Below are positions 53,525-55,947 of a DNA stretch of 64,000 nucleotides, piece by piece; the first letter of the stretch is position 1; each line of letters begins with the position of its first letter. Where the stretch lies: positions 1,488,001 to 1,552,000 of the forward strand of contig NZ_JBEJGX010000003.1 in NCBI RefSeq assembly GCF_040253635.1. The letters are read 5' to 3'. This stretch comes from Streptomyces sp. Edi2. Its GTDB lineage: Bacteria; Actinomycetota; Actinomycetes; Streptomycetales; Streptomycetaceae. The notes below the pieces were generated by a model that saw only the letters and a program-made list of their open reading frames with translations, was not told the DNA's origin and searched no databases. The position numbers were made by a program, and so were the translations under genes.

Positions 53525-54070
53525 TCAGTTCCCGGCCGAGCGGTCGTCCAGGACGACCGGCGGCTCGTCGTCCATCTCGAAGGCCAGCGGGAACGGCGCA
53601 TGGCCCGCCAGCCGCAGATAGCGCACCACCCGGTGGCGGCGGACGGCACGCGCAGCCCGTACGGCATCGTTGTGGAACCGCCGGGCCATCGGGACCCGGC
53701 GCACGGCGGCCGTGAGCTCGGTGACCGTTCGCTCACCGCCCGGGGCCTCCCGTACGGCCTCCAGCTGGGCTTCCTCGGCGAAGATGGCCCGCAGCGCCTG
53801 GCTCAGCTCACTCTCCGCGACCTCGCGGTGGTCCTCCGCCGCCTGCCGGGCCTCGTGCGCGGCCTGGTAGAGCACGATCGAGGCGGCGGGATCGAGAATC
53901 CCCGACGTACCCACCTCCTGCGCGACGGACGCCCGCCGCAGCAGTTGGGCGTCGAGAGCCGCCCTGGCCGCGTCGATACGCGCGTGCAGGCGGTCGAGGC
54001 GGCCCGCCGTCCAGCTCAGGTAGATGCCGATGAGGACGATCGCGGCGGCGATCCAAATGAACGTGGTCAC
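53525..54070 (-). CDS. LemA-like membrane-anchored protein
   Basis: 181 residues: an N-terminal membrane helix (residues about 3-21, TFIWIAAAIVLIGIYLSW), then helices with the LemA pattern ([30 protein letters not shown]) and a C-terminal RRFHNDAVRAARAVRRHRVVRYLRLAG, resembling the ARFYN motif region of LemA. Divergence is large, so the family call is tentative; function unknown. ATG at 54070, directly beside the repeat region. Confidence 0.8.
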   Translation of the reverse strand: MTTFIWIAAAIVLIGIYLSWTAGRLDRLHARIDAARAALDAQLLRRASVAQEVGTSGILDPAASIVLYQAAHEARQAAEDHREVAESELSQALRAIFAEEAQLEAVREAPGGERTVTELTAAVRRVPMARRFHNDAVRAARAVRRHRVVRYLRLAGHAPFPLAFEMDDEPPVVLDDRSAGN

Positions 54071-54199
54071 GGCCAGTCACCATACGCGCCTGCGGCGCGT
54101 TGTTTTGCCCCACGTTTTTGGCTGTCCCGCCGTGGGCGGTTGCCGCCGTTGCGCCTGGCGGCGGGCCGGGTCCGCTGGGCGGGGCTGTTGGGTGCCGGT

Positions 54200-54270
54200 G
54201 ACGGGCCTGCGCGGGTGGGTGTCCGGACTGCTTCGCTTTACGTCCGGACACCCACCCGCTCCGGCCCGTC
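54200..54270 (+). repeat. Hairpin element A
   Basis: Outer 8-bp stem GACGGGCC / GGCCCGTC, an internal loop (TGC/TCC), then a perfect 18-bp stem (54211-54228 with 54242-54259) and a 13-base loop TGCTTCGCTTTAC. Homologous flanks extend left to about 54109 and right to about 54310. See element B. Confidence 0.9.
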
Positions 54271-54374
54271 CCCTCCCATGGGGGGGGTGGGAAGAAGGCC
54301 GGTGGGGGTGGACCTGGGTGGTCCGGTGCGCGTCGCAGACCTGGGCAAAGGGCCGTGGGCAAAGGGAGCCCCAT

Positions 54375-54461
54375 GGCTCAGGGAATGGCCGTGGCACAGG
54401 GAATGGCCGTGGCACGGGGAATGGCCCTGGCACGGGGAATGGGCTGCGGCACGGGGAAATG
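54375..54461. repeat. 18-bp tandem repeat between the hairpins
   Basis: Four units and a partial fifth of GGCACGGGGAATGGCCGT, with units at 54375, 54393, 54411, 54429 and 54448 and one to four substitutions each. It lies in the middle of the inverted arms. Confidence 0.85.
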
Positions 54462-54514
54462 TCTGTGATCGACGCCCGCCCCCACCCACCTTCACCATCT
54501 CCCCCACGGGAGGG

Positions 54515-54585
54515 GACGGGCCGGAGGGGCCTGGTGTGTGGACGTAAAGCGAAGCAGTCCACACACCAGGCCCCGCAGGCCCGTC
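54515..54585 (-). repeat. Hairpin element B, inverted copy of A
   Basis: Read on the minus strand it has the same outer stem, internal loop and 13-base loop as element A. Its 18-bp stem (54526-54543 with 54557-54574) differs from that of A at six positions and is still perfectly paired. Flank homology continues right to about 54655. Confidence 0.9.
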
Positions 54586-54601
54586 ACCGCACCCACAGCC
54601 C

Positions 54602-54786
54602 CGCGCAGCGGACCCCGCCCGCCGCCAGGCGCAACGGCGGGAAAGCCAAAAACAGGGGCGAGGCAAAGCGCAGCGGACCCAGCCCGCCGCCAGGCGCAAC
54701 AAGAGAAGCCCCCACGGTGGGGCGGCCGAAAACGTGGGCCCAAGGCAAAGCGCAGCGGAACGGCGGGAAAGCCAAAAACGTGGGGG
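54602..54786. repeat. Partial direct repeats beside pimA
   Basis: CCCGCCGCCAGGCGCAAC at 54618 and 54683; AGGCAAAGCGCAGCGGA at 54661 and 54743; CGGCGGGAAAGCCAAAAAC at 54635 and 54761. They are fragments of the element B flank repeated in tandem up to the pimA stop. Confidence 0.85.
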
Positions 54787-55947
54787 TCAATCCTTGGCCA
54801 GCCACCGCCGGGCCCGAAGGCCCACCCTCTCGTCGGTGGCCACCGACACCGCCCCGGTGGTCACCGTCTCGTAGACGGCGAGAATGTCGGCACCAACGGT
54901 GCCCCAGTCGAAGCGCCGCACATGACGGGCGCCACGTTCCCGCAGCTCCGCGAGACGCGCCGGGTCACGAAGGAGCCGCACCGCCCCAGCGGCGAGCGCA
55001 TCCGCGTCCTCGTTGGCGAACAGTTCGCCGGCCTCGCCCTGGTCCAGGACCTGGGCGAAGGCGTCGAGGTCGCTGGCCAGTACGGGCGCGCCGGCCGACA
55101 TCGCCTCGACGAGGATGATGCCGAAGGACTCGCCGCCCGTGTTGGGCGCGACATAGAGATCGACGCTGCGCAGCAGCCGGGCCTTGTCCTCGTCGCTGAC
55201 CATGCCGAGGAATTCGACCCGGGAGCGCATCTCGGCGGGCAGCGCGGCAACCGCTTCCTCCTCGTCACCGCGTCCGGCGACCAGCAGCCGGGCGTCCGGT
55301 ACCTCGGCCAGGATCGCGGGCAGCGCCTTCATCAGGACCGGCAGGCCCTTGCGCGGTTCGTCGATCCGGCCGATGAAGCCGATGGTGCGGCCCTGCCACT
55401 CGGCCTTGGCCTCGGCCGAGCCGAAGAAGCCGACGTCCACGCCGTTGGGGATGACCACCGCATCGCCGCCGAGGTGTTCGACGAGGGTGCGGCGGGCGTA
55501 TTCGCTCACTGCGATGCGGGCGCTGATCTTCTCCAGCGCGGGCTGCAGGATCGGATATGCGGCGATCATCGCCCGCGAGCGCGGGTTGGAGGTGTGGAAG
55601 GTCGCCACGATCGGGCCCTGTGCCGCCCAGCAGGCGAGCAGGCCGAGCGAGGGCGAGGCGGGTTCGTGGATGTGGATGACGTCGAAGGCGCCGTGCTGCA
55701 GCCAGCGGCGCACCCGGGCCGCGGAGAGGAAGCCGAAGTTGAGGCGGGCGACCGAGCCGTTGTACGGGACGGGGACGGCGCGGCCTGCGGAGACGACGTA
55801 CGGCGGCAGGGGGGTCTCGTCGTCCGCGGGAGCGAGGACGGAGACCTCGTGGCCGAGCCGGATCAGGTGGTCGGCCAGGTCCCGGATGTGGAACTGCACG
55901 CCGCCGGGGACGTCCCAGGCGTACGGGCAGACGATGCCGATCTTCAC
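54787..55947 (-). CDS. pimA: Phosphatidyl-myo-inositol alpha-mannosyltransferase
   Basis: GT4-type GDP-mannose transferase adding the first mannose to phosphatidylinositol at the inner membrane face. N-terminal IGIVCPYAWDVPGGVQFHIRDLA, the HIHEPASPSLGLL and TFHTSNPRS motifs, FIGRIDEPRKGL and the donor-binding ESFGIILVEAMSAG are intact. 386 residues. ATGA overlap with the preceding acyltransferase. Confidence 0.95.
   Translation of the reverse strand: MKIGIVCPYAWDVPGGVQFHIRDLADHLIRLGHEVSVLAPADDETPLPPYVVSAGRAVPVPYNGSVARLNFGFLSAARVRRWLQHGAFDVIHIHEPASPSLGLLACWAAQGPIVATFHTSNPRSRAMIAAYPILQPALEKISARIAVSEYARRTLVEHLGGDAVVIPNGVDVGFFGSAEAKAEWQGRTIGFIGRIDEPRKGLPVLMKALPAILAEVPDARLLVAGRGDEEEAVAALPAEMRSRVEFLGMVSDEDKARLLRSVDLYVAPNTGGESFGIILVEAMSAGAPVLASDLDAFAQVLDQGEAGELFANEDADALAAGAVRLLRDPARLAELRERGARHVRRFDWGTVGADILAVYETVTTGAVSVATDERVGLRARRWLAKD

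Follow-up and report, generated by a model that had tools for sequence, protein, structure and literature searches.

In this study, a composite inverted repeat at positions 54108-54785 of the window (the whole 64,000-nucleotide stretch of DNA that was analysed) was characterized by computational analysis. The repeat belonged to a family of paired hairpins located near gene 3' ends, at positions common to related species. The stems of these hairpins differed and remained paired, discrete stem alleles recurred, and the loop was nearly constant among the copies found. At a probability of about 0.47, we read the family as an old, multicopy, inverted-pair palindromic intergenic element that is REPIN/BIME-like, now apparently immobile and kept as a DNA hairpin; the function is one that we infer from sequence comparison. 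The family is real, spans several species, and falls within a known kind, and the separation of its freely varying stem from the nearly constant cap is unusually clean.

The composite repeat fills the gap between two minus-strand genes. Its order was terminal inverted repeat, outer arm, hairpin A, middle region with 18-nt repeats, hairpin B, outer arm, and terminal inverted repeat (Table 1).

Table 1. Coordinates of the composite inverted repeat, its parts, and the neighbouring genes in the window.
Feature	Position	Strand	Remarks
Left neighbour gene	53525-54070	-	No Pfam/NCBIfam match at E <= 0.001
Left terminal inverted repeat, CCCCACGTTTTTGGCTGTCCCGCCGT	54108-54133	+	26 nt; 96% complementary to 54760-54785
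Left outer arm module	54140-54191	+	92% complementary to 54592-54643; alignment of 17 two-loop loci
Hairpin A	54200-54270	-	Outer stem 54200-54207/54263-54270; inner 18-bp stem 54211-54228/54242-54259
13-nt loop of A, reads GTAAAGCGAAGCA on the - strand	54229-54241	-	GCGAAGC core 54230-54236
Middle region between hairpins A and B	54271-54514	.	Own ends able to pair together
Four tandem 18-nt repeats within the middle region	54371-54442	+	Direct repeat family
Hairpin B	54515-54585	+	Outer stem 54515-54522/54578-54585; inner 18-bp stem 54526-54543/54557-54574
13-nt loop of B, GTAAAGCGAAGCA	54544-54556	+	Reverse complement of loop A; GCGAAGC core 54549-54555
Right outer arm module	54592-54643	-	Inverted-repeat partner of 54140-54191; alignment of 17 two-loop loci
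Flank module GGCAAAGCGCAGCGGA, copy 1	54662-54677	+	
Flank module GGCAAAGCGCAGCGGA, copy 2	54744-54759	+	
Right terminal inverted repeat	54760-54785	-	Ends beside the stop codon of gene 54787-55947 (-)
Right neighbour gene, family-4 glycosyltransferase	54787-55947	-	Pfam PF13439 and PF13692

Hairpins A and B were identical in the outer stem (GACGGGCC/GGCCCGTC), the internal loop (TGC/TCC), and the 13-nt loop. The 18-bp inner stems (GCGGGTGGGTGTCCGGAC versus GGGGCCTGGTGTGTGGAC) differed at six positions (2, 5, 6, 7, 13, and 14), and all six differences were compensated on the opposite arm. A sequence-only reading of this DNA had reported the same identities and the same six compensated changes, and had placed both hairpins exactly. 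It had also described homologous flanks of about 100 bases each way; the flanks were present, and their reach had been understated, as they ran to the terminal inverted repeats. Ends resembling these repeats were seen by eye at the orthologous locus of three other genomes (G064, G294, and G137). For the flank module, GGCAAAGCGCAGCGRA had 34 copies in the genome, and comparison of the two lists showed that 32 copies lay no more than a few hundred bases from an exact loop. In an RNA fold of 54095-54790, A and B formed the arms around a middle stem. Against shuffled sequence, the fold z-scores of the hairpins were -8.9 to -11.5 as single-stranded DNA and -10.2 and -11.1 as RNA. The genome contained 44 copies of the loop and none of the reversed control; on both grounds the hairpins are not due to chance. 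The internal loop was variable among family copies, some of which were fully paired at that spot. The six differences between A and B need not be six separate double mutations at the window locus, because loci of the family change their stem allele as a whole. The A-type stem allele of hairpin A was common to seven hairpins of the window genome, and the B-type stem of hairpin B was also present at the orthologous locus of G064.

The sequence-only reading had predicted further paired-stem copies in this genome and in other Streptomyces, and had proposed a loop search followed by a covariance model on the matches. Such copies were found in both. The exact loop was found in 13 of 295 Streptomyces genomes, the window genome included, with counts of 44 in the window genome (G000), 49 in G064, 18 in G191, 16 in G294, 10 in G265, and 9 in G175. 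The 44 copies lay mostly in inverted pairs; 27 loop loci of G000 were examined, and 17 held two exact loops. A covariance model built from the exact-loop hairpins matched 11 of 291 genomes of the genus at E <= 1e-8, under filters stricter than those of the exact-loop count; G294, a carrier of the exact loop, was missing from the model matches listed. Across the order, the model matched 3 of 60 genomes, all three Streptomyces, and gave 0 matches in 15 genomes of other genera of the order. An exact 19-mer scan of named genomes gave at least 80 loci under at least 20 names, and all those listed were titled Streptomyces, among them S. niger, S. lydicus, S. nigrescens, S. albospinus, S. kronopolitis, S. 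sioyaensis, S. celluloflavus, S. eurocidicus, and S. albireticuli. The plasmid search returned one Streptomyces replicon and one weak Salmonella match. As far as searched, the family is restricted to part of Streptomyces, and no description of the element was recognised in the open-access literature searched. Close pairs had the same head-to-head orientation in 67 of 69 cases, with a loop-to-loop spacing of 85-711 bp (median 229). Copy numbers in draft assemblies are probably underestimated, because contigs break at or beside hairpins (G194 contigs C64, C69, C138, C30, C123, C53, C62, C109, and C97; G265 contigs C53, C57, C83, and C94). The ends of these draft contigs are also the practical side of the family.

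The pairing of the stems was investigated in 215 accepted hairpins, which had no more than two loop mismatches and 12 or more of 17 pairs, with no two sharing the same 313-nt context. Pairing was perfect over 17 bp in 189 of them, and 77 distinct stems were present. Non-Watson-Crick cells numbered 31 of 3655 (12 G-U, 4 A-C, and 15 other), which put the G-U share at 0.33% of stem cells. Hairpins chosen by the loop plus three stem pairs, with no pairing filter, fell below 12 of 17 pairs in 4 of 93 cases (L044, L053 with a long loop, L064, and L075). In the window genome, 40 of the 44 copies paired directly and 4 had a longer loop. Enlarged loops of about 60 nt were seen in L029, L030, L031, and L033 of the window genome and in L053 and L233; the insert was rich in GCAAAG/GCGCAGC, the stem was still largely complementary, and by eye the insert resembled the flank module GGCAAAGCGCAGCGGA. 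An alignment of 33 of the 40 distinct hairpins (A1) showed changes on both sides at 11 of 18 inner pairs. Its covariation score of 0.456 compared with 0.121 for shuffles, and slid controls scored no more than 0.101; two of five covariation measures were only moderately above shuffles, which reached them in 24 and 40 of 500 cases. Pairing in this alignment was 98.8% in the inner stem and 94.3% in the outer stem, values overstated by preselection for at least 17 of 18 pairs. Within a pair, both hairpins had the same 17-nt stem in 0 of 69 cases.

The loop behaved differently from the stem. Nine loop types of 13-14 nt were found among the hairpins recovered by loop or model: the main type GTAAAGCGAAGCA; GTAAAGCGCAGCA, GTCAAGCGAAGCA, GTATAGCGAAGCA, GTAAAGCGAAGCG, and GTAAGGCGAAGCG; the 14-nt GTAAAGCGACAGCA of G194; GTAAAGCGAAGGA of L168; and GTAAAGCGACGCA of L272. 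Seven of the nine kept a GC-GNA-GC or GC-GNNA-GC core, the G194 loop being of the GNNA form and one base longer; the types of L168 and L272 broke the rule. The type GTAAAGCGCAGCA made up 16 of 23 loops in G175 and was also found in G191; the GCGCAGC form of the core was seen in these two genomes. Two single remote relatives, each the only model match of its genome, had 42-nt loops: G129 (C1:2099628-2099731) with GCGAAGC and G174 (C1:1454656-1454759) with GCGCAGC. At the window locus, G294 and G137 carried a short form, GGAC-GAA-GTCC, and in G294 short and long forms partnered each other. The pattern AGGACGNAGTCCG occurred 38 times in G137, with 32 of these forming 16 inverted pairs 127-128 bp apart. 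It occurred 14 times in G294, 1-7 times in the other eight loop genomes, and 3-7 times in six loop-free genomes; the pattern demands GNA by design, and these counts are no test of the GNA rule. Loop constancy is partly by construction, because a search that starts from the loop tends to return constant ones. A copy whose loop was quite unlike the rest would escape the 13-mer and 19-mer searches as well as the model, and the short form shows that a complete change of loop can occur. According to an excerpt of PMC4686876, GNA and GNNA loops on at least two G-C pairs form unusually stable DNA mini-hairpins. A mini-hairpin inside the loop was not predicted by ViennaRNA with DNA parameters. Kissing of two complementary loops in one transcript was weakened as an explanation, as 7 of 10 pairs in G175 joined a GCGAAGC loop to a GCGCAGC loop and the two are no longer fully complementary.

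The positions of the element were compared between genomes. At the window locus, 30 orthologous stretches were examined and 28 held both genes; the left gene was absent from the other two. Among the 28, the long hairpin was present in four (G000, G064, G175, and as a single hairpin in G086) and the short form in two. A bare spacer of 41-169 bp was found in 14, and a 475-1123-bp spacer with no such hairpin in 8, some of which may hold another gene. Seven hairpin-free orthologs (L165, L169, L172, L176, L177, L182, and L186), with spacers of 650-1123 bp, contained an open frame of 173-301 aa that may be an additional gene. In all, 20 of 28 stretches of G000 were syntenic with element loci of G064 on both flanks (flank identity 85-93%); the comparison drew on hairpin-bearing G064 stretches, which leaves the other 8 undecided. 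The stem differed between G000 and G064 in 19 of 21 comparable hairpins, and all 42 hairpins compared had at least 15 of 16 pairs; hairpins with fewer than 13 of 16 pairs, which are the long-loop copies, had been left out of this comparison, as had loci where two hairpins were of one type. Since 20 loci are syntenic and 19 of 21 stems are different yet paired, the positions are old and the stems turn over.

The stem alleles were distributed unevenly between the two genomes. One 20-bp A-type stem was present in 14 of 16 A-type hairpins of G064 and in 0 of 13 of G000; two B-type alleles were common in both. One hairpin of G000 (L020) had arms from two alleles and two mismatches, and the order of A and B was flipped between species at no fewer than two loci, meaning at least L017 versus L235 and L031 versus L211. 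Homologous recombination swapping whole hairpins between loci would give the allele distribution seen. The sequence-only reading had raised a copying mechanism, and the replacement of whole stems at fixed loci partly agrees with it. Homogenisation of the outer arms within one locus has little support: in four tests the observed value was reached by 1209, 466, 1390, and 200 of 5000 permutations, and the locus L158/L189, the window ortholog of G064, was the sole one among 17 paired G064 loci whose own arm ranked first. The 584-bp spacer at L158/L189 is nearly one long inverted repeat touching both neighbour genes, with 478 identities to its own reverse complement.

The siting of the element relative to genes was determined with a simple codon-usage gene caller written for the analysis. 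Hairpin loci lay in 58 convergent, 63 tandem, and 2 divergent gaps. Among the remaining gaps of 100 bp or more in the first set of stretches, 19 were convergent, 143 tandem, and 89 divergent (divergent versus rest, Fisher 6e-16). Of 75 loci, 74 were intergenic, and one was inside a predicted gene that may be a misprediction. In the tandem loci, hairpins were closer to the upstream stop than to the downstream start in 52 of 63 cases, and single hairpins faced either way with no preference (15 sense and 18 antisense). In the complete G064 chromosome, 49 of 49 exact loops lay between fractions 0.147 and 0.745, with none in the arms. The window element is non-terminal, at about 1.54 Mb on a 9.1-Mb contig. 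Replichore bias of single hairpins received a glance by eye with dnaA located, and no claim is based on it.

If the family is such an old DNA element, it would have spread once by some REP/MITE-like route and then stopped moving. Whole hairpins would be exchanged between loci by homologous recombination (gene conversion), altering both arms at once, and pairing would be held by selection on the DNA hairpin rather than on an RNA hairpin. A strand made single by replication, repair, or extrusion could form a long stem capped by the GC-GNA-GC mini-hairpin, and a candidate cellular protein may recognise this capped stem by its shape at gene ends.

Terminator function is the main rival reading. The element would then be an RNA-level bidirectional terminator or 3'-end stabiliser; transcripts from either side would fold the hairpins, and compensation would keep termination or RNase protection. 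The siting at convergent and tandem gene ends, the nearness of hairpins to the upstream stop, and RNA folds of about -64 kcal/mol are consistent with this function, as is the terminator-like middle region of a G137 relative (AAAAGGCC...GGCTTTTT). Excerpts of two reports point the same way: structured 3' ends in S. clavuligerus were more often without a U-tract than U-rich (353 versus 182; PMC8269248), and compensatory evolution is known in terminators (PMC5381666). In gene-end siting and in very stable hairpins the element is like the bidirectional or U-lacking intrinsic terminators of GC-rich bacteria, but it differs from intrinsic terminators of these bacteria in its nearly constant long loop, its dispersed repeat family, and the lack of a G-U excess. 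Its hairpins are GC-rich, and by eye neither A nor B is followed by a U-tract in the window. In L289 the middle hairpin has a T-run beside it, but a consensus terminator scan of L289 did not list that hairpin. Termination alone leaves the nearly constant 13-nt loop unexplained, and single hairpins showed no orientation preference. G-U cells were no commoner than other mismatches (12 versus 19). Terminators of B. cereus had 4.02% G-U and 0.02% other non-Watson-Crick cells (excerpt of PMC5381666); these percentages are inferred ancestral states of stem pairs from pairing-filtered alignments of another bacterium, and the fair comparison is that of the G-U share only. The low G-U share speaks against an RNA helix as the conserved thing. 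Wobble was on the transcript strand in 4 of 6 tandem-locus cases, which is uninformative. Because bidirectional use would lower the G-U share too, the DNA-hairpin reading is held somewhat below even odds and the terminator reading is kept as possible, at a lower probability. A structured RNA, as suggested by the sequence-only reading, was disfavoured by the mismatch spectrum, by the lack of strand preference, and by loop changes that preserve GNA.

The pairing might also be kept with no selection, by hairpin-templated repair or gene conversion alone, which would hold the arms complementary. Both arms do change together, and intermediates are few. This is nevertheless unlikely, as the adjacent outer stem was less well paired than the inner stem in the prefiltered alignment A1 and the outer arms were little homogenised within loci. 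A REPIN-type element that still moves today through a RAYT (Y1 tyrosine transposase) is very improbable, even though the family has the features that an excerpt of PMC3116915 describes for REPINs (inverted doublets, singlet remnants, extragenic siting, and compensatory hairpin changes), together with high copy number and a pairable spacer. PF01797 (Y1_Tnp) was found in 2 of 11 loop genomes and thus no Y1/RAYT transposase in the other 9; the PF01797 gene of the window genome (C3:5727913) was more than 200 kb from the nearest loop. Phage records gave no match at E <= 1e-5, and viral contigs held no exact 19-mer. Unlike REPINs and BIMEs, the element has a longer spacing, a loop that is constant while the stem varies, and positions that are syntenic between species. 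It is therefore REPIN/BIME-like in form, yet not classed as one, because both a linked RAYT and recent movement between species fail. The sequence-only reading had proposed, as one option, a mobile REP/BIME-like element. The form held, with inverted doublets, intergenic siting, avoidance of divergent promoter gaps, and single remnants; present mobility did not, in view of the synteny with G064, the confinement of all exact loops there to the inner 60% of the chromosome, and the lack of a Y1/RAYT match in 9 of the 11 loop genomes.

The hairpins were also compared with Streptomyces telomeres. The two ends of the G064 chromosome were inverted copies of each other; their stems were capped by GAA or GCA, with a single AAC cap. 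A 9-bp stem at the end carried a 15-nt loop containing GCGAAGC. In the last 260 nt of G064, the 3' strand had 8 GCGNAGC motifs and the opposite strand had none; at the right end of G294 the counts were 4 and 1. According to excerpts of PMC4513846, Streptomyces telomere hairpins are closed by sheared G-A pairing, and Tap binds the loops of telomere palindromes in single-stranded DNA. An excerpt of PMC7205883 reports that telomere stems vary under conserved loops, with compensatory changes. The element is like these palindromes in its variable stems, in its GNA-type caps (core GCGAAGC/GCGCAGC), and in the GCGNAGC motif of the G064 ends, but it is internal and intergenic, and forms inverted pairs with terminal inverted repeats. 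The four 260-nt chromosome ends checked contained no relative of the 13-nt loop with at most two mismatches. A 12-mer in common was seen by eye, with a chance of occurrence roughly estimated at one in four, and no claim of sequence kinship is made. The telomere parallel is structural; sequence likeness is limited to short motifs, with no claim of common descent. It is quite unlikely that these are interstitial telomere-like hairpins at gene ends, long perfect stems under the GNA/GNNA mini-hairpin of the telomeres; a shape-specific telomere or replication protein would then read only shape and cap, leaving the stem free to change, with cassettes exchanged by recombination. That the element is a relative or mimic of the GNA-capped end palindromes, bound by the telomere complex, is improbable as well: the caps, the GCGNAGC strand bias of G064, the Tap binding, and the variable telomere stems favour it, but one G064 end stem is capped by AAC, telomere types vary, and the dozens of copies at gene ends are left unexplained. 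The chromosome end of G333 (L306, C1:1-260) was AT-rich, with several different stems under a constant GTCA loop and no GCGNAGC.

With dozens of well-paired stems, one loop, and fixed positions, the family is a natural test set for conservation of structure at the DNA level versus the RNA level. It also suits the question of how palindromes change sequence without losing pairing. If the DNA-hairpin reading is true, it would be an instance of chromosomal DNA selected for shape alone, and telomere-type hairpins and gene ends might be linked.

The window was also searched against Rfam. The element had no Rfam family at gathering score, and 47 of 49 sub-threshold matches were to microRNA-type families and were not used. 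The sole Rfam match of the window at gathering score was the Streptomyces-metK RNA (RF03063) at 2549-2666 on the minus strand, with 108.3 bits.
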